Assembly: GCA_023512725.1 (NCBI GenBank)
Contig: JAILZB010000009.1
Coordinates: forward strand, 1-36,330
Direction: 5' to 3'
DNA length: 36,330 nt
Origin: Chloroflexota bacterium
Lineage (GTDB): Bacteria; Chloroflexota; Dehalococcoidia; SpSt-223
The position numbers and the translations under genes were made by a program. The notes beneath the pieces were generated by a model. It saw only the letters and a list, made by a program, of their open reading frames with translations, had not been told where the DNA came from and searched no databases. This document shows positions 3,837 through 27,515 of this stretch, one piece after another. The first letter of the stretch is position 1. Every line of letters starts with the position of its first letter.

Positions 3837-3870
3837 CGCTCATCCCCTCCACACCGTCGGGTTGTGGCTC

Positions 3871-3904
3871 GGGAGGTCCGTGGCCTCCCTGGCTGTGCTA
3901 CCAT
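3871..3904 (+). promoter_or_regulatory. Extended -10 promoter with upstream dyad; possible leaderless start at 3911
   Basis: TG-C-TACCAT (3896-3904) is an extended -10 element. Its last base is seven positions before the GTG at 3911, so transcription would begin at or next to the start codon. No purine-rich ribosome site precedes the GTG. An imperfect dyad, GGGAGG (3871-3876) with CCTCCC (3884-3889), covers the -35 area and could be an operator for either divergent gene. No -35 consensus is present. Confidence 0.4.
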
Positions 3905-3910
3905 CCCGGG

Positions 3911-6673
3911 GTGACTGCCCGGCTTGCTTCTCGCCCAGCCGTTCGGCCCGCGGTCACCAGCGCCCCAGCCCTCCTTGCGGTGCGTGGCCCGCTCCTTGCC
4001 GCGCTGCTCTACCTTCTCCTGACCCTCCTCCTCACCTGGCCGCTCGCGCAGCACTGGGCCGACCACGTTGTTGGCCGTGATGTCGACGAGGGGATCTTTC
4101 TCTGGAACCTCTGGTGGGTTCGTTTCTCCCTCCTCGACCGACATCAGTCGCCGTTCTTCACGGACTTTATCTTCTTTCCGGTTGGCGTGAGCCTGGTGTA
4201 CTACACCCTGACCCTCGTCAACGGGCTGCTCGCGCTTCCCTGGCAGCCCCTCCTCGGGCTCATCGGCACCGCCAATCTCCTCTTTGTGCTCAACGTGGCT
4301 GGCAACGGCTTCGCTGCCTTTCTCCTCTGCCGCTCCCTGCTGGAGGCTGCGGGTGTCCCGCGCCCCGACTGGGCAGCGTTTCTCGGTGGTGCCGCTTTCG
4401 CCTTTGCCGCCTCCCGTTGGGTGTATGCCTCCTTTGGCTCCGCCAATCTGACCACGCTCTGGCCGCTTCCGCTCTTGCTCCTTGCCCTGTTAGGTCTCCT
4501 CAACGGACGACCTTTCTCGGCTGCTGGGCAAGGAGCCCCCTCCGCGGGGGATGCCAAACGGACGGCGTGGGGGCAAGCTGCCCTCGTCGTCCTCTGGTTC
4601 GCCCTCGCGTTCTACACCGAGTTAACGCTGGCGGCCTTCGCGTTGTTCCTTGCCCTCCCCGTTGTGGTCATCCGCCTTGGCAGCGCCCTCCGCCAGCGCC
4701 AGCCCTTGCTTCCCCTGCTGGGGCCGCTGGCCGTGGCGGGAAGTGGCTGCTTTGCCGTCGCCGCGCCCCTGCTTTTCCTGATGTGGCAGGAGGATCGCCT
4801 CGAAGGCTCCTACCTGGTCGATCGCTGGGGCTACGCCGATGGCTTCTCGGCTGACCTCCTCTCGTTTTTCCTTCCGACCCGCCTCCATCCCCTCTTCGGA
4901 GAGCTGGCTGCTCCGTGGACCAGTCAGTTCACCGATGTGCCGATCGTCTATCTCGGCTACGGGGTATTACTATTTACGTTGCTCGGGCGCTGGCGGTTTC
5001 CTCACCCCACCCGGGTCTGGGGGTGGTTGGCGCTCGCCTTTGCGGTGCTCTGTCTCGGCCCGGTGCTCCACATCCTCGGACGCTCCCGCTGGAACTTTGA
5101 CGGCCTCGAGACAAACATCCCGCTCCCCTATATCTTCTTCCACTATCTCCCCCTGATTAGCGCCAACCGATTCCCGAATCGTTTCAGTATTCCCCTCACG
5201 CTCTGCCTAGCCGTGCTGGTCGCCTTTGGGGTGGCAGCGCTGCTGCGGGCGTTTCCCCGCCGGGCGACGCCACTCGTCGCCAGCCTGGCCCTGGTCGTCC
5301 TCCTCTTCGACCAGATTGCGGTACCTCTGCCCCTGAATGAGGTACGCGCCCCCGACCTCTACACGATCATTGCGGCCGAGCCTGGCGACTTCAGCATCGC
5401 CCAGCTGCCGCTCGGCTGGCGGAATAGCTACGGGGTCCTGGGGAAGGAGCGGACGACGGTCCAGGCCTACCAGGCATTCCACCAGAAGCGGATGCTTGGT
5501 GGGAACATCTCACGGAATCCTCCCTTCAAGTTCACCTACTTCGCTGACCTTCCCCTCTTCGGCACCCTTGCCCAGTTGGAGCAGGGGGTCCTCCCCGATG
5601 CCGCGACGGAAGCCGCCGACCGTGCTGCCGCGCCTGCCCTGATCGCGCTCTACGACCTGCGTTTTCTGGTCGTCCACCGCCGCTACGACGTGGCCGCGGC
5701 CGAGGAGTATGCCCGGCGGGTGCTCCCTCTTGAACTGGTGCGCGATGACGGCCGCGACGCCCTCTACCGGGTCCGCCCCGTTCCCCCACCGACTGCCCTC
5801 AGCCTGGCCTTCGGCGACCCTACCAGCCGTCCCTACCGCGGCGATGGCTGGAGCGGCGAAGAGCAGTACCTCGGTGAGGCGGTGCGCTGGTCTCTCCGTT
5901 CCCGCGCCCGCATCTTCCTGCCGCGTTTCGCTAGCGAGGCGGTGCTCCACCTCCGGGCTGCGCCGCTCGGCTACCCCGGTCGACCGGACACCACTCTGCG
6001 CCTCCTCCTCAACGACGAGCTGCTAGGGGAGTTCTCGCTTCGCGAGGGGTTGGCCGACTATCAGGTGGTGGTGCCAGCGACGAGCTGGCGGACGGGTGCC
6101 AACGCCCTCGACGTGGTGGTTGACCGGCTCGCGCGGCCGGCCGAGGTGCTTCCGCCCGAGCGAAGCATTGGCACGACGGGCACTCGCGCTCCCGTTGACC
6201 TCCGCGTCCAGTCCGCGGGCTTGCTGAGCGGGAATGTTGCCCGCATCCTCGTCAATGGGCAGCAGGTCGCGCGCGACCGGCGCGGCTACAACCTTGTCGC
6301 CCTCGACCCGACGAGTGGCCGGGTCCTCCTCTCGGTGGCGTTCGATACGTTCGCCGACCCCACCGCTGCCACCCGGTTAGCCGAGACAATCCGCCAACTG
6401 CCAGCCGGGACGATCGTCGCGCTGGCGGCGAAAGATGATGCCGCGACCCTGCTCACTGAGGAGGCGGTCGCGGCGCTGCGAACGGCCGGGATGATGACCG
6501 ACCTGCGGGGGGCGTTTCGCGCCAGTCACGCAGCGATCGGTGTGGTCGGGGCACCGCCTGGCAGTGCCCTCGAAGCGAGCGGACCGGAGGCCGTCCAGCT
6601 GGCACTTGGGCGCTCGCCCGATGAACGAATGCTGGGGCTCGCCGTTGCGCGGGTGGAGATCCGCCAGCGATGA
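3911..6673 (+). CDS. GT-C-type polytopic membrane protein with C-terminal ILEI-like domain
   Basis: This 920-residue protein has a polytopic N-terminal half with many hydrophobic helices. An Asp/Glu pair (GRDVDEGIFLWNLWW, about residues 55-70) lies in the first outer loop, where GT-C glycosyltransferases keep their metal-binding acidic residues. The C-terminal half is soluble. A beta-rich, jelly-roll-like region spans about residues 610-760. A domain resembling the ILEI/FAM3 fold follows (about 762-905), with GYNLVALDP, AFDTF, PAGTIVALAAKDDA and HAAIGVVG in the right order. I infer transfer of a lipid-linked sugar to an extracytoplasmic acceptor, with the C-terminus recognising glycan. GTG at 3911 is chosen from the promoter geometry; the frame is open further upstream, but that part overlaps rpoD and looks non-coding. 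It overlaps the next gene by four bases. Confidence 0.8.
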   Translation: MTARLASRPAVRPAVTSAPALLAVRGPLLAALLYLLLTLLLTWPLAQHWADHVVGRDVDEGIFLWNLWWVRFSLLDRHQSPFFTDFIFFPVGVSLVYYTLTLVNGLLALPWQPLLGLIGTANLLFVLNVAGNGFAAFLLCRSLLEAAGVPRPDWAAFLGGAAFAFAASRWVYASFGSANLTTLWPLPLLLLALLGLLNGRPFSAAGQGAPSAGDAKRTAWGQAALVVLWFALAFYTELTLAAFALFLALPVVVIRLGSALRQRQPLLPLLGPLAVAGSGCFAVAAPLLFLMWQEDRLEGSYLVDRWGYADGFSADLLSFFLPTRLHPLFGELAAPWTSQFTDVPIVYLGYGVLLFTLLGRWRFPHPTRVWGWLALAFAVLCLGPVLHILGRSRWNFDGLETNIPLPYIFFHYLPLISANRFPNRFSIPLTLCLAVLVAFGVAALLRAFPRRATPLVASLALVVLLFDQIAVPLPLNEVRAPDLYTIIAAEPGDFSIAQLPLGWRNSYGVLGKERTTVQAYQAFHQKRMLGGNISRNPPFKFTYFADLPLFGTLAQLEQGVLPDAATEAADRAAAPALIALYDLRFLVVHRRYDVAAAEEYARRVLPLELVRDDGRDALYRVRPVPPPTALSLAFGDPTSRPYRGDGWSGEEQYLGEAVRWSLRSRARIFLPRFASEAVLHLRAAPLGYPGRPDTTLRLLLNDELLGEFSLREGLADYQVVVPATSWRTGANALDVVVDRLARPAEVLPPERSIGTTGTRAPVDLRVQSAGLLSGNVARILVNGQQVARDRRGYNLVALDPTSGRVLLSVAFDTFADPTAATRLAETIRQLPAGTIVALAAKDDAATLLTEEAVAALRTAGMMTDLRGAFRASHAAIGVVGAPPGSALEASGPEAVQLALGRSPDERMLGLAVARVEIRQR

Positions 6674-8988
6674 GCGTTGCGAGCGCCCGGCGAGCAGGTC
6701 TGCTGGATGGGCAGTCGTTGCTGCAGGCAGCCAGCGCAGGGGGAGCAGTGCCCCGCCTCGCGCGGGCAGACCTCCTGCTGGCCCTCACGGTGGGGGGCAG
6801 CGCCCTGCTGCTCTACTTGCGTACCCTGGCGCCGACAGTCCTCGCCTTCGATAGCGGTGAGTTCCAGTTTGCCGGTCCCACCCTTGGCCTGGCCCACCCG
6901 ACTGGCTATCCGCTCTACCTGCTCCTCGCCTGGCTGGTCCACTGGCTCCCCGTGGGGGATGTCGCCTACCGGGTGAACCTGCTCTCGGCCCTGGCAGCGA
7001 GCGGAGCGGTGGTGATCACCGTGTTCCTTGGGGTCTCGCTCCTGCCCGGTTCCCCTCTGGCCCGACGGAGCGGGGCGAGCGCAGCGGCTGCGCTCCTTGC
7101 CGTCGCCTCCGAGTTCTGGTCGCAGGCCGTGATCGCCGAGGTCTACGCCCTCCAGCTGCTGCTGCTCGCCCTGCTCAGCCTCGCGGTGGTGCGGCGCTGG
7201 CCGCTACCCGTAGTGGGGGGGCTGGTTGGGATGTCGCTGGCCCATCACCGGGCCGCCCTGCTCACCCTGCCCGTGCTGGGGCTGTACCTCCTGCTGGACC
7301 AGCGCCCGGGCTGGCCGGGGTTGCGCGTGGTCGGGTTGAGCGTGCTGACTACCCTCCTCCCGCTCGCGCTCTATCTCTACATCCCCCTCCGTGCTGAGCA
7401 TTCGCCCTATCTGCGCCAGGTCACGGGTGGCGGGCGCGCGATCGTCGTCTTCCAGAACGACCTCAACGGGTTTCTCGATGCCGTAACCGGGCGCGTCTTT
7501 GCCGACAAGCTGGGGCCTGCCCACTTCGAGGAGCGGCTCGCCCTCTTCGTTCAGCTGCTCGGTCGCCAGTGGAACCTCGCCGTGCTACTGGTCGCCCTTG
7601 TTGGAGAGGTGCTTGTGCTGGTGCGGCGACCGGTCGTGGGCGGGCTCCTCGCCGGAGTTTTCGGGGTGACAGTCGCCTTCGGGCTGGTCTATCAGATCGG
7701 CGATATCGAGGTGTACTTCATCCCTGCCTACTGGGCGGCGGCGCTGGCTGCTGGTGCCTTCGTAGCGACACTGGTCAACCGCTTCCGGACCCCGCGGATG
7801 GCGCTCAGCCTCGGTGCTGTCGCCACGCTCGCCCTGGCCCTACCGCCGCTGTTCCAGCACTTCCCGGCCCTCGATCGCAGCAACGACTGGCAGGTGCGCG
7901 CCCGCTGGGAGGAGATCCTGGGCGAGCCGCTCGAGCGCGGAGCTATCCTGACGAGCGACGATCGCGACGACCTGACCCCCCTGTGGTACTTCACCCTCGT
8001 CGAACGGCGCCGCCCGGACCTGGTTGGCGCCTTCCCCGGGATGGTCAATGCCCCTGAGTACGCTGATCTTGGGCGGCTGATCGACACGCTTGCCGGGCCA
8101 GATGAGCGGATTTACCTCATCAAACCGATGCCGGGCTTGGAGGTGAAATATCGCCTGGAAGCGCAGGGCAGCCTCTGGCGGGTCGTCGGGCCAGCGGTCG
8201 ACCGGGATCCACCCCGGCGGCTGGAGGTGCGGGTCGGCGAGGAACTGCTGCTGGAAGGGGCCGAACTGCCTGCCCTCGTGGCGGGCGAGCAGCTGACGGT
8301 GACTCTCTGGTGGGACGTCCAGCAGCCGCCCGGGCGCAACCTCACCACCTTCGTCCACCTGCTCGACCATCAGGGGCGGCTGGTGGCCCAGAGCGACGCG
8401 CCGCCGGGCGGCCTCTTCTACCCCACCAGCCGCTGGCGCGCTGGGGAGCGACTGCTCGACCGCCACCTGCTGCGGTTGCCGTCCGACCTGCCGGCTGGCC
8501 GCTACTCGGTACGAGCGGGGGTGTATGACGAACGGCTGCGTCGCTTGCCCACCGCCCAGGGCGACACCGTCGACCTCGGGGCGGTGCGGGTGCTGCGGCC
8601 GTTGAGCGAGCAGCCGGCCCAGCGGGTGGAGCGTGAGGTCATTGGTATCGGTCAACTGGAGGGGTTCACCCTCGCTGGCAGCCGCCTGCGCCTGTTCTGG
8701 ACGGCGGCCGGGCCCACCCTGACCCCCTTGACCGTTTTCCTGCACCTGGTAGACGCGAGTGGCCGCCTGGTGGCCCAGGCCGACGGCCCCCCAGCGGGCG
8801 GCAGGCTCCCGACGACCAGTTGGCTGGCCGGGGAGCGCGTGCTCGACGAGCGTCAGCTCCCGCTCGGCCAGCTGGCGCCAGGGCGCTACCGGCTCGTGAC
8901 AGGGTGGTACGACCCCCAGACGGGTGCCCGTGCCCCACTCGCCGGGGGCGGGGATACGATCGACCTGGGCGAGCTGACCGTCCCCTGA
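6670..8988 (+). CDS. DUF2723-type GT-C membrane protein with two C-terminal sandwich repeats
   Basis: This is a 772-residue protein. The ATG overlaps the TGA of the preceding gene (ATGA, 6670-6673), which indicates translational coupling. The N-terminal half is polytopic and carries the DUF2723/protein O-mannosyltransferase-like signature DSGEFQFAGPTLGLAHPTGY (about residues 58-77), including the Asp and Glu of GT-C enzymes. The C-terminal 270 residues hold two copies of a beta-sandwich-like unit. The shared pattern is LTVTLWW / LRLFWT, FVHLLD / FLHLVD, GRLVAQ-D, W-AGER-LD, LPAGRYSVRAGVYD / LAPGRYRLVTGWYD, ending GDTVDLG / GDTIDLG. The pair probably handles cell-envelope glycans or protein O-glycosylation; no experimental substrate is known to me. 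No terminator is obvious after the stop. Confidence 0.82.
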   Translation: MSVASARRAGLLDGQSLLQAASAGGAVPRLARADLLLALTVGGSALLLYLRTLAPTVLAFDSGEFQFAGPTLGLAHPTGYPLYLLLAWLVHWLPVGDVAYRVNLLSALAASGAVVITVFLGVSLLPGSPLARRSGASAAAALLAVASEFWSQAVIAEVYALQLLLLALLSLAVVRRWPLPVVGGLVGMSLAHHRAALLTLPVLGLYLLLDQRPGWPGLRVVGLSVLTTLLPLALYLYIPLRAEHSPYLRQVTGGGRAIVVFQNDLNGFLDAVTGRVFADKLGPAHFEERLALFVQLLGRQWNLAVLLVALVGEVLVLVRRPVVGGLLAGVFGVTVAFGLVYQIGDIEVYFIPAYWAAALAAGAFVATLVNRFRTPRMALSLGAVATLALALPPLFQHFPALDRSNDWQVRARWEEILGEPLERGAILTSDDRDDLTPLWYFTLVERRRPDLVGAFPGMVNAPEYADLGRLIDTLAGPDERIYLIKPMPGLEVKYRLEAQGSLWRVVGPAVDRDPPRRLEVRVGEELLLEGAELPALVAGEQLTVTLWWDVQQPPGRNLTTFVHLLDHQGRLVAQSDAPPGGLFYPTSRWRAGERLLDRHLLRLPSDLPAGRYSVRAGVYDERLRRLPTAQGDTVDLGAVRVLRPLSEQPAQRVEREVIGIGQLEGFTLAGSRLRLFWTAAGPTLTPLTVFLHLVDASGRLVAQADGPPAGGRLPTTSWLAGERVLDERQLPLGQLAPGRYRLVTGWYDPQTGARAPLAGGGDTIDLGELTVP

Positions 8989-13505: not shown

Positions 13506-15383
13506 CTAGCGCCGCTCGGCTGGCTCGATGAGGAGGCGGAAGGCGCCTTCGCGACTGGTCTCAGCCGTCAGGCCGCTGACGATCAACACCGCGCGCTGGA
13601 CGTCCTGGCCGACCCCGCGGAGCGTGAGGCTGCCACGGTTCTGGGCATCCAGCACCAGATCCTCGACGGTGACCGTGGGGCCGAAGCGAACGAGCTGGAC
13701 CGCGAAGCGCTGGGGGAACCGGCCAGCCGTCCGCACGAACCCGACGGCGGTCCACCCTCGGTACTCCTCTGCATCGTCAGCCCAGCCGATCTCCGGGATG
13801 CGCAGGTTGTCGAGGGCGAGCCCTTCGAGGTTGATGGCGTCGTCCGTCACCACTTCGAAGCGCAGCAGGATGCGTTGCCCGGCGTAGGCGCTCAGGTCGA
13901 CCCGTTCTGGGACCCAGCTCGGCTGCGACCCTCCCGAGCTACCCGTCCACCCCGGGCCGAAGGCGCTATCGACCGCGCTGGTCGAGGTGGTTGCCGGCAG
14001 GACCTGCCAGCTCGTGCCGCCATCGACGGAGACCGCCACGTAGGCGAAGTCCCAGTTCCGCTCCAGGTCATGCCAGAGCGAGAACTCCAGGGTAGCGCGC
14101 TCCACCCCCCGCAGGTCGACCTCGCGCGTCAGCGTGGCATCCATCCCATCGCCCCGAGTGCTCCACCAGAACTGGTGCCCAGGACGCGGTTCGGCGCCGA
14201 GCAGGGCCACCGTGGGCTCCCCCTCGAAGCGAATGGTCGCATCGGCGGGCAGGTGCAGCTCATAGTACTGGGCCCCGAACTGCTGGACACTCCCACTCAC
14301 GCTGCCGAACTGGCTGATGGTCGTGCGTGGGGCGACCCGTGCGTTCAGGCCGTCGTGGCGGTAGCGTGGCTGGGTGGGGTCATTGAGCAGGTTCGCGACC
14401 GTCCAGTCCTTGAACACCGTCTCGAAGCTCGGCCCACCGTGGCGGGCCAGCCAGGCGGCAACTCCCGCCACCCCCTGGCGGGGCTCGCGGACGAGGTCCG
14501 GCAACGTATCACTCCCGAACCGCTGGGCCAAGTAGCGGAAGAACAGATAGGCAGCGCCGTAGTGTGGACCAGCGGCAGCAGGGCTCGCCGCCCAACCAGT
14601 GAGCGAGGTGTTCGGGTTCGCCAGAAAGGCATTCAGGAAGCTCGCTCCCGCCCCGCACCGTTCGGCTGCGAGCTCAGCCAGCCCTTCGTTGACCCAGGTC
14701 GCTTCGGTCGGGTCGTTCGCCCACTGCACCATGTGGAAGAACTCGTGCGCCAGCGTGCTCAGGAACTGGTTCGAACCCAGGCGGAGGGCGCCAGCATTCA
14801 GGTAGAACATCTTGCGCTGGTTGCTGAACGGGTTGACGGCGGTCGGATATTCGTCGGCGCTGCTGTAGTAGCCCGCGACACCGGGGAAGTTGCCCACGAG
14901 CACCGCGAGACGGGCGGTCGCATCCTCCCCGGCTGGCAGCTCGCTGCCGAACTGCTGACGCACACAGGGGAGGACCGCCGTCTCGAACGCCTCCGCCGAG
15001 CGCCGCAGGTCGTCTTCCGCGGGTTGCAGGCCGCGCTGCACGTAGAGCGCCAGCCGCGGCGTGGCGGCACGCAGCACCGCCTCCACCTGGTAGTGGCTAC
15101 CCGTGCTCACCTCCGTCACCCAGAAGGTCCGCACGTCACCGAGCTGCTCGGGAAGGACTTCCAGCTGGCGGGGGACCGGCCTCCCACCTGTCCGGAGCCG
15201 CTCGGCCAAGGCGTAGAGGTCGCGCGGCGGAGGCTCGGGCAGTGCACGCGTGATCGGCACGTCCTCGCGGACGACTACTGCCGTTGGCGCTGATGGTGCT
15301 CCAGCAAGCCAACTGGCGCTGACCACTGCCCCCGTCGCACTGGCGAGCAGGAGGGCCAACAGCCCGAGCAGGAGGCGCTTCAC
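13506..15383 (-). CDS. Secreted metallopeptidase, immune inhibitor A-like (HEXXH)
   Basis: This is a 625-residue secreted zinc peptidase. GTG at 15383 overlaps the TGA of the phosphorylase gene (GTGA) and follows AGGAG by four bases. A hydrophobic signal segment (KRLLLGLLALLLAS) begins at residue 2. The zinc motif HEFFH has His213, Glu214 and His217. VNEGLAELAAE follows about 15 residues later, with Glu233 or Glu237 as the third-ligand candidate, so this is a gluzincin-like active site. The C-terminal half resembles the tail of immune inhibitor A (M6) peptidases: a MAM-like sandwich with ATLEFSLWHDLE, YVAVSVDGGTSW, VDLSAYAGQRILLRFEV and LDNLRIPE. It probably degrades extracellular protein. 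Coupling to a nucleoside phosphorylase gene is odd. Confidence 0.83.
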   Translation of the reverse strand: MKRLLLGLLALLLASATGAVVSASWLAGAPSAPTAVVVREDVPITRALPEPPPRDLYALAERLRTGGRPVPRQLEVLPEQLGDVRTFWVTEVSTGSHYQVEAVLRAATPRLALYVQRGLQPAEDDLRRSAEAFETAVLPCVRQQFGSELPAGEDATARLAVLVGNFPGVAGYYSSADEYPTAVNPFSNQRKMFYLNAGALRLGSNQFLSTLAHEFFHMVQWANDPTEATWVNEGLAELAAERCGAGASFLNAFLANPNTSLTGWAASPAAAGPHYGAAYLFFRYLAQRFGSDTLPDLVREPRQGVAGVAAWLARHGGPSFETVFKDWTVANLLNDPTQPRYRHDGLNARVAPRTTISQFGSVSGSVQQFGAQYYELHLPADATIRFEGEPTVALLGAEPRPGHQFWWSTRGDGMDATLTREVDLRGVERATLEFSLWHDLERNWDFAYVAVSVDGGTSWQVLPATTSTSAVDSAFGPGWTGSSGGSQPSWVPERVDLSAYAGQRILLRFEVVTDDAINLEGLALDNLRIPEIGWADDAEEYRGWTAVGFVRTAGRFPQRFAVQLVRFGPTVTVEDLVLDAQNRGSLTLRGVGQDVQRAVLIVSGLTAETSREGAFRLLIEPAERR

Positions 15384-16201
15384 GCTGCTCCTGCCCGCTG
15401 AACCAGACTCCCGAGCGCAACGGCCAGGCGAGGGAGGGCTGCCTGGCAAGCCGCGAGCACCTCCTGGTGGGAGAGCTGGTTCCCGTCGCCGCAGCGGTTC
15501 GTTACCAGCGAAAGCGCGCAGATGCGGAGCCCCTGCTGCCGCGCCACGATCACCTCCGGTACCGTGCTCATCCCGACGACATCGGCGCCGATCCGGCGCA
15601 GGAAGTGGCACTCAGCCGGCGTCTCGTAGGAAGGCCCGACGACCATGGCGTAAACGCCCTCGCGGGCGCGGAGGCCAGCTGCTCGGCAGGCCTCTTGGGC
15701 GGCCGCCCGCAGCGCACCATCGTAGGCGTCGTGGAGGGCGAGGAAGCGCTCGCCCAGCGTGCCGACCAGCGGGTTCGCCCCCGCGAAGCCTGGCAGGTTG
15801 AGGTGGTCGCGCAGGACGACGACATCGCCTGCCTGCAGGTCCTCGGCGAGGGCACCCGCCGCGTTCGTGAGCACAACGGTGGTCACGCCCGCCTGGGCGA
15901 GAACCCGCATGGGAAAGGCCACCTCGCGTGCAGAATAGCCCTCGTAGAGATGGGCCCGGCCAGCCAGCACGAGCACCGGGCTCCCAGCGAGCCGGCCGAT
16001 CACCAGCTGCCCCGCATGGCCAGCGACCGTCGGCCGGGGGAATCCCGGGAGGGCAGCATACGAGCAGGACACCGCCTCCTTCAGGGTTGCGACCAGCGGG
16101 CTGAAACCGGAGCCCAGCTGGAGCGCGACCCGCGGGACGGGGTGTCCGAGCGCTGCAATCGCGTGCGCCGCCGCTTGCGCGGGATCGTCCGGGGGTGTCA
16201 C
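15380..16201 (-). CDS. punA: Purine nucleoside phosphorylase (trimeric, PunA type)
   Basis: This 273-residue enzyme splits purine (deoxy)nucleosides with phosphate into base and sugar 1-phosphate for purine salvage in the cytoplasm. Recognisable elements are LGSGFSPL (phosphate-binding loop, about residues 28-35), GRAHLYEGYS, TNAAGAL, GPSYETPAE, VGMSTVPEVIVARQ and SLVTNRCGD. The last is close to the usual SLVTN-xxG purine-site segment but carries Arg-Cys where many homologues have small residues. GTG at 16201 is supported by AAGGAG five bases upstream. TAGAAT (16218-16213) is a possible -10 very near the start, which would give a leader of only a few bases. It is divergent from the methyltransferase and coupled by a 4-bp overlap to the metallopeptidase. 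5'-methylthioadenosine phosphorylase is an alternative; the motifs favour PNP. Confidence 0.88.
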   Translation of the reverse strand: MTPPDDPAQAAAHAIAALGHPVPRVALQLGSGFSPLVATLKEAVSCSYAALPGFPRPTVAGHAGQLVIGRLAGSPVLVLAGRAHLYEGYSAREVAFPMRVLAQAGVTTVVLTNAAGALAEDLQAGDVVVLRDHLNLPGFAGANPLVGTLGERFLALHDAYDGALRAAAQEACRAAGLRAREGVYAMVVGPSYETPAECHFLRRIGADVVGMSTVPEVIVARQQGLRICALSLVTNRCGDGNQLSHQEVLAACQAALPRLAVALGSLVQRAGAA

Positions 16202-16285
16202 CGTACTCCTTCATTCTAGGGATGCAGCTGGTGCCCCGCCAGCCACCGAAGGGTGCACCCCTTCTCGGTTGCAGTCGCTCTCCCT

Positions 16286-16294
16286 TGCTACAAT
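16286..16294 (+). promoter_or_regulatory. Extended -10 promoter for the methyltransferase
   Basis: TG-C-TACAAT (16286-16294) lies 37 bases before the ATG at 16332, giving a leader of about 30 bases that carries the GGAGAGGAGG ribosome site. The -35 region is poor (TTGCAG is present but only 14 bp away), which fits reliance on the extended -10. Confidence 0.45.
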
Positions 16295-16331
16295 AGACTG
16301 AAGGTAAGACGCTGGAGAGGAGGCGAGAACG

Positions 16332-17234
16332 ATGGTGCTCGCACTGGCCCCCCACGAGCCACAACCCGTCCCGATCACGCGCGAGAACATCTTCGATACC
16401 CCGATGACCCCCTTCGAGGAGTGGTTGTTCTCGCTGGCGCGTCAAAACCCTGCCCGCTTCCGTCAGCTCGTGACCGAGTGGGTCGACATGTGCCCGGCGT
16501 TCGACGGCCCGGAAGATGGCGCTGACGTGGTGCCCCCAGGGTGCCTGACGCCAATCCCGATCCCGGAGTACTGGAAGATCCCCGTCCACCTCGAGCCGGG
16601 TGGATTTGGCAACCCCAAAGTCGTGCGCTTGAGCCAGGTCTCCAAGGCCCAGTGGACCTTCACCCGCGAGGAGAACGTCCGCGAGTGGCTCAGCCGCCTC
16701 TACGGGGATGCACCCCCGCGCCGCTTCCTCGATATCGGCACCGGCACCGGAACGACCGCTATCGTCTGCGCCGAGCTGTTCCCCGAGACGGAAGTGATCG
16801 GGATCGATCTCTCGGCCCCCTACATCCGCTTTGCGCGCGAATGGGCGAAGCGGCGAGGGCTGACGAACGTGCAGTTCTACCAGCAGAACGCTCAGCAGAC
16901 CGTCTTCCCCGACGCCAGCTTCGACGCCGTGCACTTCACCTACGTGCTCCACGAGATGCCGGTGGAAGACGCCCGGAAGATCTTGCGTGAGCTGTACCGG
17001 CTCACTACCCCAGGCGGCCGGCTGTCGATGTTCGACGGCCTCTACCCAGATACCGAAGAAGAGCGCCAGCGGAAGGCGCAGTTCAGTAAGATCACCGGCA
17101 TCGAGCCGTACCTCGGCGAGTACATGAAGCTGAACGTCGAGAAGGCGATCGCCGAGACCGGCTTCACCGAGGTGACTCGCCACTTCGCCGTTCCGGACGG
17201 AATGGTCGTCTCGGCCCGCAAGCCCGCAGCCTGA
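16332..17234 (+). CDS. Class I SAM-dependent methyltransferase
   Basis: This is a 300-residue cytoplasmic methyltransferase. Residues about 1-125 form an N-terminal extension with an FDTPMTPFEEWLFSLAR helix that may cap the active site. The Rossmann core follows. Motif I is FLDIGTGTGTTAI (about 132-144). An acidic residue follows the second strand in VIGIDLS. NAQQTVFPDASFDAV is motif II/III, then HEMPVEDARKILREL and LTTPGGRLSMFDG. These place it with methyltransferase domains 11/25, typical of small-molecule, quinone or lipid methylation. The start is backed by GAGGAGG upstream. It stands alone between a divergent phosphorylase and the C39-like gene. The substrate cannot be told from the sequence. 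Confidence 0.88.
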   Translation: MVLALAPHEPQPVPITRENIFDTPMTPFEEWLFSLARQNPARFRQLVTEWVDMCPAFDGPEDGADVVPPGCLTPIPIPEYWKIPVHLEPGGFGNPKVVRLSQVSKAQWTFTREENVREWLSRLYGDAPPRRFLDIGTGTGTTAIVCAELFPETEVIGIDLSAPYIRFAREWAKRRGLTNVQFYQQNAQQTVFPDASFDAVHFTYVLHEMPVEDARKILRELYRLTTPGGRLSMFDGLYPDTEEERQRKAQFSKITGIEPYLGEYMKLNVEKAIAETGFTEVTRHFAVPDGMVVSARKPAA

Positions 17235-21271: not shown

Positions 21272-22114
21272 CTAGCGCAACGGTTCCACCCAGTGGCCGG
21301 TCGTGAGGCGGAAGGTTAGCAGGACAGCGAAGGAGACCAGCACCAGGATGCTGCTGATCACGAGGGCAGCGTTCAGGTCGGTCTCGAGCGCCTGGTAGAT
21401 CGCGAGCGGCAGGGTCTGGGTTCGCCCGAGGAATGAGCCTGCGAACAGGATCGTGGCGCCGAACTCGCCGATCGCCTTCGCCCAGGCGAGCACGACGCCC
21501 CCCGCCAGCGCGGGAAAGGCGAGCGGGACGGTGATCAGGCGGAAGACGGTCAACGGCCCGGCACCAAAGACCATGGCCGCCTCCTCCGCCTCCCGCTCGA
21601 CGGCGGCGAAGCCCGCGCGGGCGGTCCGAATGTAAAAGGGGGCGGCCACAAAGCACTGGGCGAGCACCACGGCGGTCAGGGTGAACGCAACCTCAATGCC
21701 GAGGGCGTTGAGCAGCGGTCCGAAGAGGCCCCGCCGGCCGAATGTGAACAGCAGCGCCACTCCGGCCACTGCGGGCGGCAGTACGATTGGCAGGTCGAGC
21801 AGGGTCTCGACGATGCTCTTGCCGGTAAACTCAGCGCGAGCGAGGAGATAGGCGGTGGGAGTGCCCAGCAGAACGATCAGGGCAAGGGCAAGGAGCGAGC
21901 TGACCAGGCTCAGGCGGAGCGCTTCGGCCACGATCGGCCGGGTGAGGTACTCCACCACCAGGCCACCCGGTACGGTGCGGGCGAGGACCGTCGCTACCGG
22001 CACGCTCAGATAGAGCAGGACGATCAGGGTCGCTGCTGGGGGGAGCCACCGCACGGTGAGTGCCGGCGCTGGGGGAGCTGGCAGCGGCCGGACGGTTGCG
22101 TCGCGGGTGGTCAT
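21272..22114 (-). CDS. modB: Molybdate ABC transporter permease ModB
   Basis: This 280-residue inner-membrane permease has about six hydrophobic helices, the first at about residues 25-48. It starts with an ATG that overlaps the modA stop (ATGA), so the two are co-translated. LLDLPIVLPPAVAGVALL precedes the family's cytoplasmic coupling region. AAMVFGAGPLTVFRLITVPLAFPAL is the EAA-type loop that contacts the ATPase. GEFGATILFAG is a typical ModB segment. It would carry molybdate (possibly tungstate) released by ModA into the cytoplasm. No modC follows: the next gene downstream is the converging lysR. The ATPase must therefore be encoded elsewhere. Confidence 0.92.
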   Translation of the reverse strand: MTTRDATVRPLPAPPAPALTVRWLPPAATLIVLLYLSVPVATVLARTVPGGLVVEYLTRPIVAEALRLSLVSSLLALALIVLLGTPTAYLLARAEFTGKSIVETLLDLPIVLPPAVAGVALLFTFGRRGLFGPLLNALGIEVAFTLTAVVLAQCFVAAPFYIRTARAGFAAVEREAEEAAMVFGAGPLTVFRLITVPLAFPALAGGVVLAWAKAIGEFGATILFAGSFLGRTQTLPLAIYQALETDLNAALVISSILVLVSFAVLLTFRLTTGHWVEPLR

Positions 22115-22977
22115 GGCGGCGGCAGGAAGCCGTACTTCTTCAGCGTCGCCTGTCCTTCGGAAGCGAGGACGGCGTTGATAAAGGCCTCCGCGGCCTCCCG
22201 GTTGCGCGCTCCCTGCACCACCGCGATCGGGTACAGCGCCACCACGTTGAACTGGTCTGGGATGGGCAGCACCTGGACGATGTTCGCCGTCTGAGCGGTG
22301 ACATCTGTCGCGTAGACGATGGCGGCATCGGCCTCGCCCAGCTGGACCTTCGCCAGGACCTGCCGCACGTTCGGTTCCTCAGAGACCACGTTGCGCAGCG
22401 TCCCGTCGGCAAAGACGGCCCCGTAGGCGGGGTCAGCGCTCAGCTTCTGGAAGATCTCGCGGGCGTAAGCTCCTGCCGGCACGTCACGCTGGGCGAGCAC
22501 CAGCTTCAGCCCAGGGCGAGCAAGGTCGCCCACGCTCTGGATCCGGCCTGGGTTCTCACGCGGCACAACGACTACCAGTTTATTGCTCGCGAACAGCCGT
22601 GGCGTGCCACTGATCACTCCGTTACGGACGGCAAGCTCCATCTGCTCAATGTTCGCCGAGGCGAAGAGATCCGCCCGCGCGCCTTGCTCGATCTGGGTCC
22701 GGAGCTGGGGCGAGCCAGCAAAGTTGAAGGTGACGCGCAGCCCCGGGGCGCTCGCTTCCAGGCGCTGTCCGATCTCGGTGAACGCTTCGCTCAGCGAGGC
22801 AGCGGCAAAAACGACCAGTTCACCGCTCAGGGCCGGGCGCGCTGGCTGGGCGGGCGGTGTGGCCACGGAGGGGCCGCTGCTCGTGGGGCTGGGAGCGCCG
22901 GTAGGAGCGGGCTGACAGGCGCTGAGGCCAAGCACAAGAAAGACGGCGCGGGCGAGCTGGAGGAGGAAACGGTCCAT
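22111..22977 (-). CDS. modA: Molybdate-binding lipoprotein ModA
   Basis: This is a 288-residue periplasmic/extracytoplasmic molybdate-binding protein. The N-terminus is a lipoprotein signal with lipobox LSAC (Cys21), followed by a Pro/Ser/Thr-rich spacer. LVVFAAASLSEAFTEIG starts the binding domain, with the anion-binding Ser pair. Then come FNFAGSPQLRTQIEQGA, ADLFASAN, NKLVVVVP, AGAYAREI and EADAAIVYATDV, all in ModA order. ATG at 22977 is preferred over an upstream TTG. It lies seven bases after a -10-like GAGAAT and has only a poor ribosome site, so the mRNA may be leaderless. It is co-translated with modB. Supply of molybdenum fits the molybdoenzyme and the MoaB-like domain elsewhere in the window. 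Confidence 0.93.
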   Translation of the reverse strand: MDRFLLQLARAVFLVLGLSACQPAPTGAPSPTSSGPSVATPPAQPARPALSGELVVFAAASLSEAFTEIGQRLEASAPGLRVTFNFAGSPQLRTQIEQGARADLFASANIEQMELAVRNGVISGTPRLFASNKLVVVVPRENPGRIQSVGDLARPGLKLVLAQRDVPAGAYAREIFQKLSADPAYGAVFADGTLRNVVSEEPNVRQVLAKVQLGEADAAIVYATDVTAQTANIVQVLPIPDQFNVVALYPIAVVQGARNREAAEAFINAVLASEGQATLKKYGFLPPP

Positions 22978-22984
22978 GTCGCCT

Positions 22985-23014
22985 ATTCTCAACAAGATCA
23001 ACAGTTTGTGTCAA
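22985..23014 (-). promoter_or_regulatory. modA promoter, TTGACA-18-GAGAAT, next to the start codon
   Basis: On the minus strand a perfect TTGACA (23014-23009) is followed after 18 bp by GAGAAT (22990-22985). Seven bases then separate it from ATG 22977. No ModE-type operator was recognised. Confidence 0.5.
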
Positions 23015-23110: not shown

Positions 23111-23464
23111 ATGTACCTTTCACGCTTATCGTTCTCGGTCCTCCCTGGCAAGGGACGTGAGGCTGCCGAGGCGCTCAAGACCCTCGCAGCCTTGGTGGCG
23201 GCGCACGGCGGTGGCCCAACCCGGATCCTGCAGGCGCACTTTGCTTCACCGGAGGCGGCCGACCTTCAGTTCGAGCAGGAGGTGGCGAGCGTCGCGGAGC
23301 TGGAGGCACAGGTGCGCCAGATCGCCGCGCTGCCGGAGTTCCAGCAATGGAGCGCATCCTTCTCGTTGCTGCTCAGCCGGACGCCAAAGCGGGAAGTGTT
23401 TACGGTCGTTGCCGAGGAGGGTGGGGGGCACCCCGGCCCGGCAGCTGCAGCGAGCGCGGGGTAA
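23111..23464 (+). CDS. Small NIPSNAP/ABM-like (dimeric alpha-beta barrel) protein
   Basis: This is a 117-residue soluble protein. ATG at 23111 follows GAGGGGA by a few bases. The order MYLSRLSFSVLPGKGREAAEALKTL (strand, helix), then RILQAHFA, then LEAQVRQIAALPEFQQW (helix) and FSLLLSRTPKREVFTV (strand) fits a single ferredoxin-like half of a dimeric alpha-beta barrel. NIPSNAP and antibiotic monooxygenase-like proteins share this fold. The last 15 residues are Gly/Ala/Pro-rich and probably disordered. It is divergent from modA and converges on prephenate dehydratase. No catalytic residues can be named; assignment is by fold pattern only. Confidence 0.65.
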   Translation: MYLSRLSFSVLPGKGREAAEALKTLAALVAAHGGGPTRILQAHFASPEAADLQFEQEVASVAELEAQVRQIAALPEFQQWSASFSLLLSRTPKREVFTVVAEEGGGHPGPAAAASAG

Positions 23465-23505
23465 GCAGCACCAGGTGCGACTGGCGGAAGCGAACGGTGC
23501 GGGAG

Positions 23506-24327
23506 CTAGTCGCCGCGCGGGTAGGAGCCCAGCACGCGCAGCAAGGTGGCCATCTCCGCGAGGTGGTCCAGGGCGCGCTTGCCTGGGCCCTCGGCGGCGT
23601 GGCCAGCGAAGTCCAGGTAGAAGACGTACTCCCAGGGACGCCCCTTGAGGGGGCGCGATTCGATCTTGGTCAGGTCGATGTCGCGCAACGCGAAGGCGGC
23701 CAGCGCCCGAAAGAGCGCGCCCGGCACGTTGGTCATCGAGAAGACGATCGAGGTCTTGACGGGCACCTCGGTGGGCGGTCGGGGCGCAGGCTCGCGGGCC
23801 AGGGCCAGAAAGCGGGTGTAGTTTTCCGGCTCATCCTCGATTCCTTCCTCCACTACCTCCAGGCCGTAGACCTCGGCAGCCCGGCGGCTGGCGATGGCCG
23901 CGGCATCGTTGCGCCCTTCCTCCGCCAGCGCCTTGACGGCGCCGGCGGTATCGTAGAACGGCGCCGTCGCGACCCCGAGGCGCGCCAGGTAGCGCTCGCA
24001 CTGGGCCAGGGCCTGCCAGTGGCTGTAGACCTTGCGGACATCCGCTTTGCGGACGCCCGGCAGGGCGATCAGGCAATGGCGGATCCGGAAGCTCAGCTCT
24101 CCGACGATATACAGCTGGTAGCGCAGGAGCAGGTCGTAGTTCTGGTGGACGCTCCCCGCCAGCGAATTCTCGATCGGTACCACCCCGCGCTCACAGTCGC
24201 CGGCCTCCACGCGTTGGAAGACGTCTTCGAAGGTTGCGCAGGGCACCGGCACGATCGCAGGCCCGAGCAGCGCGCTTGCCGCTGCCTCGCTGTAGGCGCC
24301 ACGCTCTCCTTGAAAAGCCACCCGCAT
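23506..24327 (-). CDS. pheA: Prephenate dehydratase
   Basis: This 273-residue enzyme converts prephenate to phenylpyruvate in phenylalanine synthesis. [15 protein letters not shown] opens the catalytic domain. [20 protein letters not shown] is the classic active-site segment, and NYTRFLAL carries the catalytic Thr. [10 protein letters not shown] and SHWQALAQC occupy positions where homologues often read STA-AV and SHPQAL-QC, so two positions differ from the common form. A C-terminal ACT domain ([18 protein letters not shown], then [14 protein letters not shown]) should bind Phe for feedback inhibition. ATG 24327 is chosen over 24348 because AGGGGGAA precedes it and a -10-like TACACT abuts the earlier ATG. 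It is a monofunctional enzyme without chorismate mutase. Confidence 0.93.
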
Positions 24328-24395
24328 CGTTCCCCCTTCGGCTGCCATAGTGTACTGGCTCGCCGGCTCTGGCTGACGGCAGGTGGAAGGGGCTA

Positions 24396-24411
24396 TCCGC
24401 CACCCGGCGGA
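24396..24411 (-). terminator. Short hairpin after the LysM/M23 gene
   Basis: TCCGCC (24396-24401) and GGCGGA (24406-24411) form a 6-bp stem with loop ACCC, seven bases beyond the M23 peptidase stop. It could separate that gene from pheA transcription. No U-tract is present. Confidence 0.3.
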
Positions 24412-24417
24412 GGACGG

Positions 24418-25521
24418 CTAGCGCAGGTAGGAAAGGGGGTTGACCCGCACGCCCCGGTAGAGCAGCTCGAAGTGGACGTGCGGTCCAGTGGTGATGCCCG
24501 TCAGCCCGACGGTGCCCAGGGGCTGGCCACGGGTAACCACCTCTCCCTTGCGGACGTAGAGCTGGTTCAGGTGGGCGTAGCGCGAGACGAAGCCGTTGCC
24601 ATGGTCGATGTCGACCACCGTGCCGTAGCCACTGTTCCAGCCGGTTGCCGCGACGACGACGGTCCCGCCATCGATGGCGAAGACGCCGTTGCCGAAGGGG
24701 GCGGCAATATCCAGCGCGGGGTGATAGCCAGAGTAGTACTGGGTGATCCGCCCTTCGGTGGGCCAGCCCAGGCGCAGCCCGCGCAGAGTGCTGGCAGCTG
24801 CATCGGCTGCCTCGCCGGCACTGCTGGCTGCGCTCGCGGCGGCGGCCACGACGGGTGGGGCAGGCGCGGGCGGTCGCGGCTTGACCCCGAGGGGGAACAG
24901 GATCAGCTGGCCGGCGATCAGCTGCTGGGGGTCCTCGATCCGGTTGAGGGGGTAGTTCAGCACTGCCTCGACCGAGACGCGATAGCGCTCGGCCAGCTGA
25001 GCCAGCGTCTCCCCGGCCTGGACGGTGTGGAGCACGCCCGTCACCGGGGGCACGCGCAGCACCTCCCCCGGCCGGATCAGGTTCGGGTCGCTCAGGTCGT
25101 TCGCCCAGATCACGGTTTCGGTCGAGACGCCCAGCCGGTTGGCGATCGCAGAGATGCTGTCGCCAGGTTGGACGACGTACTCGGTGATGGTCGTCCGTTC
25201 GGAGAGCCCCGGGCCGAGCATGGGGTGGGTTGCCAGAAAGCTCGGTGCCCCGCTCACCGGGAACGGCTCGAAGGTCCAGCCGCGCAGGTCGTTCCCGCGC
25301 TCGCTTTTACTGCCCGCGGCACCCACCACGGTAACCGTCAGCACAATGAGGCCGATCAGGGCGTGGGTGAGGTGGCGGGGCAGGAGGCTGAGGACGAGCG
25401 TGGGGCCAGCGGCAGTTGTCTCTCGACGCAGCAGCCCGCCGCTGGCAGCGAGCAGAGTAGCGCGCTCCCCCCCGCGCCGGACCTGTGCCGCACTGAAATG
25501 GACCGCCCGCGACCCCTGCAC
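24418..25521 (-). CDS. Membrane-anchored LysM-LysM-M23 peptidoglycan peptidase
   Basis: This 367-residue envelope protein has a basic N-terminal region, one membrane segment (ALIGLIVLTVTVVGAAG, about residues 54-70), then two LysM modules. The first begins YVVQPGDSISAIANRLGV and the second HTVQAGETLAQLAERYRV. An Ala/Pro-rich linker leads to a C-terminal M23 (LytM-type) domain. Zinc ligands are visible in YHPALDIAAPFG (His and Asp) and GPHVHFEL (the HxH pair). It should bind peptidoglycan through LysM and cut peptide cross-links, or act as an activator. GTG 25521 is proposed from a promoter with its -10 only six bases upstream; an in-frame ATG at 25548 has no ribosome site either. Confidence 0.85.
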   Translation of the reverse strand: MQGSRAVHFSAAQVRRGGERATLLAASGGLLRRETTAAGPTLVLSLLPRHLTHALIGLIVLTVTVVGAAGSKSERGNDLRGWTFEPFPVSGAPSFLATHPMLGPGLSERTTITEYVVQPGDSISAIANRLGVSTETVIWANDLSDPNLIRPGEVLRVPPVTGVLHTVQAGETLAQLAERYRVSVEAVLNYPLNRIEDPQQLIAGQLILFPLGVKPRPPAPAPPVVAAAASAASSAGEAADAAASTLRGLRLGWPTEGRITQYYSGYHPALDIAAPFGNGVFAIDGGTVVVAATGWNSGYGTVVDIDHGNGFVSRYAHLNQLYVRKGEVVTRGQPLGTVGLTGITTGPHVHFELLYRGVRVNPLSYLR

Positions 25522-25527
25522 GCCCGG

Positions 25528-25557
25528 ATTATGCAGGCAGGCAGCCATTGCAGGCAA
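25528..25557 (-). promoter_or_regulatory. Promoter TTGCCT-18-CATAAT before a GTG start (leaderless candidate)
   Basis: On the minus strand TTGCCT (25557-25552), 18 bp, then CATAAT (25533-25528). Six bases separate it from GTG 25521. It lies in the 60-bp gap after the GNAT-MoaB stop. The geometry matches the other leaderless candidates in the window. Confidence 0.4.
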
Positions 25558-25581
25558 GTCGGCAGTCGGCTGCGCTATCGG

Positions 25582-26706
25582 CTAGTGGTGGCTGACTTCC
25601 CAGACCAGGTGGCGCAGCTCCGGCAGGATCAGGCGGTCCAGCGCCAGCTCGACCGCTTGGGGCGAGCCCGGGAGGGCGAAGAGCAAGGTCTCGCTGATGA
25701 CCCCCGCCGTGGCCCGCGAGAGCATGGCCGCGGGGCCAATCTGCGCGAAGGAGAGCATCCGGAACAGCTCGCCGAAGCCGGGCAGCCGTTTCTCCAGCAG
25801 CCGCTCGACGGCATCGATGGTCGAGTCCCGTTTGGCGAGGCCGGTCCCGCCGTTGATGATCACCAGCTGACAGCCGGCAGCAGCCAGCTCCTGAACCAGG
25901 GTGGCGATGGTCGTCGGGTCGTCGGGCACGACCTCGTAGCGGACGACCAGGTGGCCCGCGGCCGTCAGCCGTTCGCGGATCAGCTGGCCCGAGCGGTCGG
26001 TGGCGGGCGTGCGCGTGTCGCTCGCGGTGATGATGCCGCAGCGAATGGCGGAGGTAGCCGCTTCGGCGCGCTGGCGGTGCTCTTCGACAGTCACCTCTCC
26101 TCTCTCCTGGGCCATGAACAGATGGTGGTGGCCGGATTCGACCAGGTCCACGCTGGCGAGGTCGAAGGCGCTGGCTGCCGCGGGCAAGGGAGCGGGGGCG
26201 GCGGTCGGGGTGAGGGAAAGGCGCCACACCTCTTGGACTGGCCGGAAGCCGAGCTTGCGGTAGAACGCGCGCGCCCGCTGATTGCGACGGGTGACATACA
26301 ACTGCAGCCGGTCAAAGCCCTGCTCGGCCGCCCACCGGCACGCTTCTGCTACCAGCCGCTCGCCCAACCCGCTTCCCCGCTGGTCGGGCGTCAGGTAGAT
26401 AGCGGCCAGCTCGGCCCAGCGGCGGTGGCGAAAGAGCGGGGAATCGAGGTGGGGTTCGACCAGCAGCAGACCGACCGGGCGCTCGCCCTCCCACGCCAGC
26501 AGCCAGAGGGCGCTGCCGCTCTGCTGTGTCTGCTCAAAGTGGCGGCGCAGCAGGTCGCACCAGCCATCGGCGAGGGCGAAGAGCGGGTCAAGGGTGGCGT
26601 TATGGGCATGGAGCGCGCCGAACAGCGTCGCCAGGGCAGGAAAGTCGCTGGCCGTGGCGGGCGCCAGGCGCAGCGCGCGGTCGGGGTGAAAGCGTGGAGT
26701 CGTCAT
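25582..26706 (-). CDS. Fusion of a GNAT acetyltransferase with a MoaB/MogA-type molybdopterin domain
   Basis: This is one uninterrupted 374-residue reading frame. Residues about 12-165 are a GNAT N-acetyltransferase: AAIYLTPDQRGSGLGERL is the acetyl-CoA pyrophosphate loop and RAFYRKLGF the C-terminal signature. A linker rich in Ala/Pro follows. Residues about 222-374 match MoaB: GIITASDTRTPATDRSG, VIINGGTGLAKRDSTIDAVE, ELFRMLSFAQIGPAAMLSRA and FALPGSPQAVELALD, all in order. MoaB/MogA proteins adenylylate molybdopterin before metal insertion. The acceptor for the acetyl group is unknown. ATG 26706 has a poor ribosome site. ModAB 3 kb away and a molybdoenzyme make a cofactor role for the C-terminal part likely. 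Confidence 0.85.
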   Translation of the reverse strand: MTTPRFHPDRALRLAPATASDFPALATLFGALHAHNATLDPLFALADGWCDLLRRHFEQTQQSGSALWLLAWEGERPVGLLLVEPHLDSPLFRHRRWAELAAIYLTPDQRGSGLGERLVAEACRWAAEQGFDRLQLYVTRRNQRARAFYRKLGFRPVQEVWRLSLTPTAAPAPLPAAASAFDLASVDLVESGHHHLFMAQERGEVTVEEHRQRAEAATSAIRCGIITASDTRTPATDRSGQLIRERLTAAGHLVVRYEVVPDDPTTIATLVQELAAAGCQLVIINGGTGLAKRDSTIDAVERLLEKRLPGFGELFRMLSFAQIGPAAMLSRATAGVISETLLFALPGSPQAVELALDRLILPELRHLVWEVSHH

Positions 26707-26778
26707 AATGGCGGTCTCGTGCGGTGGCTGCTCTCACGATACGCGCTGGGTGGCGGTGCTGTCCAGCCGGTTGGCCAC

Positions 26779-26818
26779 TTGATCGCAGCGCGGCAGTCGC
26801 GCACAATCGCTTGCGCGA
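26779..26818 (+). promoter_or_regulatory. tetR promoter overlapped by a perfect inverted repeat (candidate TetR operator)
   Basis: TTGATC (26779-26784), 17 bp, then CACAAT (26802-26807). TCGCGCA (26797-26803) and TGCGCGA (26812-26818) form a perfect 7-8-7 inverted repeat over the -10 and expected start site. A repressor bound there would block its own promoter, the usual TetR autoregulation. A second, wider repeat, GCACAA (26801-26806) with TTGTGC (26823-26828), overlaps it. Confidence 0.5.
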
Positions 26819-26894
26819 ACACTTGTGCCGGATACGCTGCTCGCCGTGTGCGGGAGAGGGGGGGCCAGCGTGCCGACTGTGGGAAGGAGGCGAG

Positions 26895-27515
26895 GTGCCA
26901 CGGCGCTATGTGATGGTTCGCCGCGCGCAGCTCACCCGGGAGACACGCCGTCGCATCATCGGGGCGGTGCTTGATCTTGTCCTCGAGCGGGGGCCGGAAG
27001 ATTTTTCGGTCGAGGAGATCTGTGAGCGCGCCAAAGTGTCGCTGCGGACTGTGTACTACCACTTTCCCTCGCGGGCCGCGCTTCTCTCCGCTGCACTGGT
27101 GGAACTCGCGCGCGAGATGGGTGCAGCCGCCCTCCGGGCCTGGCGCGATGACCAGGCGGACCCCTGCGAGGCGCTGCTCGGCTATGTCGCGGGGATCTAC
27201 CAAGTCTACGAGGAAGAAGCACCCCGTTTCGAAGCGATCCTGAGTGTGCGCCGGAACCCGGAGCTCGAGGCGACGGTCGGCCGGTTGCGGGCCGCTGCGC
27301 GCGACCACATGACGGTCCTCCTCGAAGCGGCCCGGCCGCAGCTCCGCCTGCCGCTCACCGATGCGATCGCGCTGGCCTACATGCAGACGCTCTACCCCGT
27401 CTGGCGTTCCTACCGCGTCGACCTGGGGTGGTCAACGGCGGAGGCGATCGCCTTTGTCACGCGCTTCCTCCGCGAGACGCTCTTCCAGCCAAATGCACCG
27501 CCGACTGCGGGCTGA
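26895..27515 (+). CDS. TetR-family transcriptional regulator
   Basis: This is a 206-residue regulator. GTG 26895 is chosen because AAGGAGG (26884-26890) precedes it by four bases; the GTG/ATG at 26910-26915 lack correct spacing. The N-terminal helix-turn-helix covers about residues 15-60 (TRRRIIGAVLDLVLERG, FSVEEICERAKVSLRTVYYHFPSRAALL). The remaining all-helical C-terminal domain is not typed to a ligand. It lies 80 bases upstream of the oxidase operon on the same strand and is divergent from the GNAT-MoaB gene. Either could be its target besides itself. A stem-loop right after its stop suggests partial separation from the oxidase genes. Confidence 0.92.
   Translation: MPRRYVMVRRAQLTRETRRRIIGAVLDLVLERGPEDFSVEEICERAKVSLRTVYYHFPSRAALLSAALVELAREMGAAALRAWRDDQADPCEALLGYVAGIYQVYEEEAPRFEAILSVRRNPELEATVGRLRAAARDHMTVLLEAARPQLRLPLTDAIALAYMQTLYPVWRSYRVDLGWSTAEAIAFVTRFLRETLFQPNAPPTAG

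Follow-up and report, generated by a model that had tools for sequence, protein, structure and literature searches.

The window analyzed here, a stretch of 36,330 nucleotides from a Chloroflexota bacterium of the class Dehalococcoidia (contig JAILZB010000009.1), contains a single open reading frame that joins a GNAT acetyltransferase domain to a MoaB-type molybdopterin domain. We consider it probable (at roughly 0.75) that this frame arose in one lineage when an existing operon pair, consisting of moaB and the gene for a GNAT acetyltransferase, was fused in frame, with the MoaB half acting as the only molybdopterin (MPT) adenylyltransferase of the cell and the GNAT half having a separate substrate. 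Since the two closest relatives possess two touching genes instead, the frame appears to be a small, probably genuine local fusion and not a new enzyme system.

Domain content of the fused reading frame

The fused frame and its parts are the following:

25582 to 26706, minus strand: fused GNAT-MoaB reading frame (P0002), 374 aa, starting with the ATG at 26706 and ending with the stop at 25582, assigned with Pfam and NCBIfam
26113 to 26706, minus strand: GNAT half, residues 1-198, with a tail (...SVDLVESGHHHLFM) common to the relatives
26083 to 26115, minus strand: bracket of the junction, residues 198-208 (MAQERGEVTVE), the sole stretch that cannot be aligned to the sister species
26094 to 26108, minus strand: probable surviving Shine-Dalgarno stretch, the purine-rich AGGAGAGAGGAGAG upstream of the internal GTG
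26091 to 26094, minus strand: probable ancestral MoaB start, GTGA, in which the GTG overlaps a TGA of the neighboring frame; the related genomes G001 and G002 have separate start and stop signals at the same place
25582 to 26094, minus strand: MoaB half, which comprises 170 aa when counted from the internal GTG, with D262, GGTG 286-289, D294 and S330 conserved

A preliminary description of this DNA had placed the frame correctly at 25582-26706 and had seen in it all the main GNAT motifs followed by a complete MoaB domain. This is borne out by Pfam and by 374 codons that contain no internal stop; the strand, which had not been given, is the minus strand. Acetyltransf_1 covers residues 54-154 with 68.5 bits against a cut-off of 20.7 (E 8e-19), and MoCF_biosynth (PF00994) covers residues 224-366 with 114 bits against a cut-off of 26.6 (E 5e-33), spanning positions 1-144 of the 144 positions of the profile. 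Both matches are far beyond chance and essentially complete. The frame does not belong to the fused Mo insertases of the gephyrin/Cnx1 type, since Pfam detects no MoeA (E) domain in it. Neither is it a bifunctional MoaC/MoaB protein (NF002947), because it reaches only 128 bits against a cut-off of 285, and this with the MoaB part only, while MoaC would have to precede MoaB. An open frame of 1188 codons on the plus strand (23347-26913), which runs antisense to three conserved genes, was rejected as a probable by-product of the high G+C content; all the conserved domains lie on the minus strand.

The junction and the probable origin of the fusion

Two other genomes of the order could be compared (G001 and G002), both from the same genus as the window, and in both of them GNAT and MoaB are encoded by separate neighboring genes. 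The fused protein is 60-63% identical to these relatives in the GNAT half and 68-70% identical in the MoaB half. Around the junction, the three sequences align almost gapless; they are conserved as far as GHHHLxM and then again from the start of MoaB, with an unconserved linker of approximately ten codons. In G002, GNAT ends with ...GHHHLFMDDRR and is followed by TAA, a single G and the ATG of MoaB, so that the separate genes have a gap of 1 nt and lie in different frames. In G001, GNAT ends with ...GHHHLGMDDHD, and ATGACTGA comprises the end of GNAT together with the overlapping ATG of MoaB; here the genes overlap by 8 nt and again lie in different frames. Judged by this layout, the unfused pair consists in both genomes of adjacent, translationally coupled genes. 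Compared with both G001 and G002, the window carries 2 additional bases at the junction, and these make the GNAT and MoaB genes fall into one frame. The earlier statement that there is no sign of a frameshift is therefore correct inside the window but not in comparison with the two genomes of the same genus, where the halves are found in different frames.

In the simplest history, the ancestor would have been a coupled pair resembling that of G001 and G002. A small indel in the unconserved tail or leader of ten codons would have taken the GNAT stop out of the reading frame, and the ribosome would then run on from GNAT into MoaB. The fusion thereby offers an example of a coupled gene pair becoming one gene, in which the sister species represent the state before the event and the junction appears to retain the old start signals.

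The same arrangement would result from an assembly or sequencing error of 1-2 bases in the purine-rich junction ggagagaggagagg, which would join genes that the cell itself carries separately. Such an artefact would agree with the separate genes in both sister species, with the GTGA start/stop overlap at the right place in the neighboring frame and with the fragmented state of the assembly (461 contigs, 90.7% complete, 7.55% contamination), which is the one genome from which the fusion is known. We nevertheless regard it as unlikely. Portions of 675 kb from the window assembly and 819 kb from G001 were searched for frame jumps by protein-against-DNA comparison both ways, a survey of about 3% of the genome, and in the 109 kb that could be aligned (approximately 110 homologous genes) the GNAT/MoaB junction is the sole frame jump in either direction. 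Random indel errors are thus rare in the window assembly, generally occurring indel errors can be rejected as an explanation, and an error within exactly these 30 bases is improbable. Moreover, the junction contains no long homopolymer, and a natural indel is to be expected in a linker whose sequence and length differ among all three species. The preliminary description had anticipated that the fusion might be explained away by relatives with two separate genes and a sequencing error joining them here; the closest relatives indeed have two genes, but the sole frame jump in 109 kb lends no support to the sequencing error. Another explanation accepts the fused frame and concerns its products: free MoaB, translated from a candidate start at the internal GTG at 26094, might be the main functional product and the fused form a by-product. 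This GTG is located where the start of MoaB is expected (GTG ACT GTC GAA GAG CAC, M-T-V-E-E-H) and has an AGGAG 4-10 nt upstream, a property shared by just one of the 146 further internal ATG/GTG codons compared from genes close by. Its Shine-Dalgarno sequence is also stronger than that of the GNAT start (-7.2 versus -3.0 kcal/mol). However, the duplex energy of -7.2 kcal/mol is ordinary, as 15 of the 146 internal codons are equally good, and we consider free MoaB as the main product possible but rather doubtful. In the operon-pair fusion that we prefer, some free MoaB might still be made from this surviving GTG in addition to the fused protein.

Distribution of the fusion

Our analysis of the distribution revealed that GNAT-MoaB is not a general architecture. 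The fused query matched 246 of 294 genomes of the class, and among the matches listed the GNAT domain itself is covered only in the three genomes of the genus. When the GNAT half alone was searched for, 29 of 400 genomes of the phylum matched. A pattern scan of genome contigs returned three loci, all of them with MoaB only, and none of the plasmid records covers 80% of the fused query. A second GNAT-MoaB fusion was found neither in the 294 genomes of the class, nor in the plasmid records, nor in 82 genomes of the order to which G426, a genome from another class, belongs. GNAT and MoaB are both common in these 82 genomes (about 50-66% identical to those of the window), and apart from G426 they are located on different contigs or far apart. 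Since the genes are separate in both congeners and no second fusion occurs in the genomes and plasmids searched, the fusion does not form a conserved family present in more than one species, as far as pattern, class, phylum, order and plasmid searches can tell, which together are narrower than a full domain-architecture search. The literature searched, which left out most subscription papers, contained no description of a GNAT-MoaB fusion either, in line with the preliminary description, which knew of none.

Neighboring genes

The genes downstream of the fused frame are the following:

24418 to 25557, minus strand: LysM/M23 peptidase gene, next downstream of the fused frame and the same neighbor in G001 and G002
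23506 to 24348, minus strand: prephenate dehydratase gene, next downstream of the LysM/M23 gene, in an order conserved in G001 and G002
21272 to 23001, minus strand: genes for the molybdate ABC transporter components ModA and ModB (identified with NCBIfam), approximately 2.6 kb downstream of the fused frame

The window starts inside a gene, and positions 14-1360 encode part of a molybdopterin-binding oxidoreductase. MoaA is also encoded in the window genome. Neither a Moco riboswitch nor any other Rfam RNA was detected in the window at the gathering thresholds. In G002, a gene for a molybdopterin enzyme of the sulfite oxidase type (Oxidored_molyb; locus L067, 8213-9577) immediately precedes GNAT and moaB, a position that it does not occupy in the window or in G001.

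Elsewhere in the window, positions 3521-6673 encode a protein of 1050 aa that carries an ILEI domain (interleukin-like EMT inducer) close to the C-terminus, and this gene adjoins one for a TMEM260-like membrane protein (6670-8988). A suspected broken gene at 13506-17183 turned out to be an ordinary gene for an InhA-like secreted protein (MAM domain) that is preceded by a spurious open frame.

Properties of the MoaB half

The MoaB half scores 121 bits with TIGR00177 (molyb_syn, NCBIfam; cut-off 85), and its best solved relative is MoaB from B. cereus (1y5e, E 9e-45, residues 207-371). GGTG 286-289, D262 and D294, the motifs typical of MoaB/MogA proteins, are present in the alignment of the relatives; the MogA numbering was assigned by motif. 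MoaB from P. furiosus (catalytic Asp56) and Cnx1G (catalytic Asp515) have in their active site the GGTG motif and a Mg-binding aspartate, both of them essential (PMC3896444), and Asp49 and Asp82 of MogA are required for activity (PMC9458074). The NCBIfam equivalog moaB_proteo (TIGR02667) is not reached (150 bits against a cut-off of 222). By its name, this is a model for proteobacterial MoaB, and the result denies the MoaB half only a subfamily name.

MoaB from E. coli is inactive in MPT adenylylation though it is homologous (PMC3896444), which demonstrates that membership in the family alone does not prove activity. It is the conservation of the catalytic residues, together with the finding that this is the sole MoaB/MogA protein found in the assembly, which suggests that the MoaB half is most likely the molybdopterin adenylyltransferase of the cell. 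No second protein of the MoaB/MogA type was found among the PF00994 proteins of the window assembly (91% complete); the others comprise two proteins that are MoeA-like and one that is CinA-like, judged by sequence and length, and one match near a contig end. One of the two MoeA-like proteins (L080, 946-2715) consists of 589 aa compared to 420 aa for the other and perhaps carries an additional C-terminal domain.

The GNAT half and its genomic context

The GNAT half possesses the acetyl-CoA loop QRGSG (109-113) and the motif GHHHL (192-196), and its Acetyltransf_1 match above the curated cut-off identifies it as a GNAT. None of the NCBIfam equivalogs reaches its cut-off, the best being rimI with 40 bits against 86, and so no named GNAT subfamily can be assigned. 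The closest solved structures are PDB 2fe7 and 12jc (E about 4e-7). Within the corresponding family, whose phylum Chloroflexota was taken from two named Dehalococcoidia relatives of the MoaB half, roughly one in two of the members sampled has a GHHH-type tail at its end, and most of the others retain one histidine at this place.

The most conspicuous feature of this family is its neighborhood. A gene for a COG0523 (CobW-type) GTPase is located at a distance of at most 1.5 kb in 13 of the 19 loci sampled outside the window genus, and L090 becomes the fourteenth such GNAT locus when the view is widened. As there are only 7-8 PF02492 matches per genome in the three genomes checked (4.5-14 Mb), the adjacency of GNAT and COG0523 genes is far above chance, with the qualification that the sampled loci are mutually related. 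The wider loci (L046-L064 and L083-L090) contain several COG0523 genes as well as genes for a WD40 protein, ZnuA and an ABC-3 permease (ZnuABC), Fur-family regulators and a zinc ribbon; going by this gene content, they are zinc-homeostasis or zinc-uptake clusters. In the window genus, no COG0523 gene was found beyond weak G3E similarity. We know of no description of a link between GNAT and COG0523 proteins, and few targets of COG0523 proteins are known. This by-product of our analysis may matter more than the fusion itself and would offer a testable partner for COG0523 proteins.

At one locus of G426 (L065, 1900-7829), the gene for a short COG0523 protein stands between those for GNAT and MoaB, and this row is accompanied by a WD40 gene and two more genes of COG0523; the genome has another gene of the MogA type at a different place (L076). 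In the MoaB tree, G426 and the window genus are united in a single clade (UFBoot 99, SH-aLRT 87). In the GNAT tree, the position of G426 is unresolved and it is not placed with the window genus. It is possible, that a GNAT-COG0523-MoaB row first lost the COG0523 gene and was then fused in one species, a history of which the data come close to showing the last step only.

Proposed function of the fused protein

As a fused operon pair, the two halves would form one chain of 40 kDa, the MoaB part of which may assemble into a trimer or hexamer with the GNAT domains on the N-termini, tethered via a tail and linker of roughly 40 residues. The MoaB half would adenylylate molybdopterin (MPT + ATP -> MPT-AMP) for MoeA, and the GNAT half would retain an acetylation substrate of its own that is not part of a step in cofactor synthesis. 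Since the overlap already couples the translation of the unfused genes, the fusion adds little beyond a fixed stoichiometry. Of the two meanings considered in the preliminary description, co-expression by fusion fits better for this same reason. A link of acetylation to Mo-cofactor synthesis can point to operon adjacency only; the fusion exists in one genome, and the GNAT family occurs elsewhere with zinc-homeostasis genes.

In a functional fusion, GNAT would acetylate some component of the Moco pathway, either a small molecule or a protein such as MoeA, a Mo-enzyme or MoaB itself, and would have been fused in order to deliver this activity. The adjacency of GNAT and MoaB throughout the genus (three genomes), the nearby genes for a Moco enzyme and for molybdate transport, and the row in G426 with its MoaB as sister to that of the window genus would be in agreement with this. 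However, there is no MoaB near GNAT in 18 of the 19 loci sampled outside the genus, the sampled Chloroflexia-like genomes that possess the two genes have them at a large distance or on separate contigs, and the grouping of G426 with the window genus is not reproduced by GNAT. The frequent COG0523 neighbors together with ZnuABC, Fur-type regulators and zinc ribbons rather point to metal homeostasis, so that we consider a functional fusion of this kind very unlikely. The usual zinc-cluster context argues for a GNAT role that is separate or metal-related. One could also assume that a histidine-tailed metal-homeostasis GNAT was recruited to the MPT adenylyltransferase by the operon and later by the fusion, with acetylation or metal binding regulating Moco synthesis, but we attribute hardly any probability to this scenario.

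Comparison with known systems

With the thialysine/diamine acetyltransferase-like GNATs (2fe7, 12jc), the GNAT half has the acetyl-CoA loop and the overall domain in common, although the resemblance is distant; the Chloroflexota members differ by their conserved GHHHL tail and by adjoining COG0523 genes. The zinc-homeostasis clusters described for COG0523 (PMC2770081) are comparable to the 13 of 19 sampled loci with a COG0523 gene close to GNAT and to the zinc-uptake genes in the wider views, whereas in the window genus no COG0523 gene was found beyond weak G3E similarity; that description nowhere uses the term "acetyltransferase". The MoaB half shares the full MoCF_biosynth domain, the GGTG motif, the catalytic aspartates and the SR motif with the MoaB/MogA proteins (1y5e from B. 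cereus, MoaB from P. furiosus, Cnx1G and the G domain of gephyrin). In relatives MoaB is free-standing, whereas an N-terminal GNAT domain is present here. The combination of a MoaB/MogA domain with another catalytic domain is likewise found in the fused Mo insertases gephyrin, Cnx1 and NIT-9 and in the bifunctional MoaC/MoaB proteins (NF002947). In all of these the partner is an enzyme of the Moco pathway, either MoeA or MoaC, whereas the partner in the window is a GNAT and the fusion is limited to one genome.
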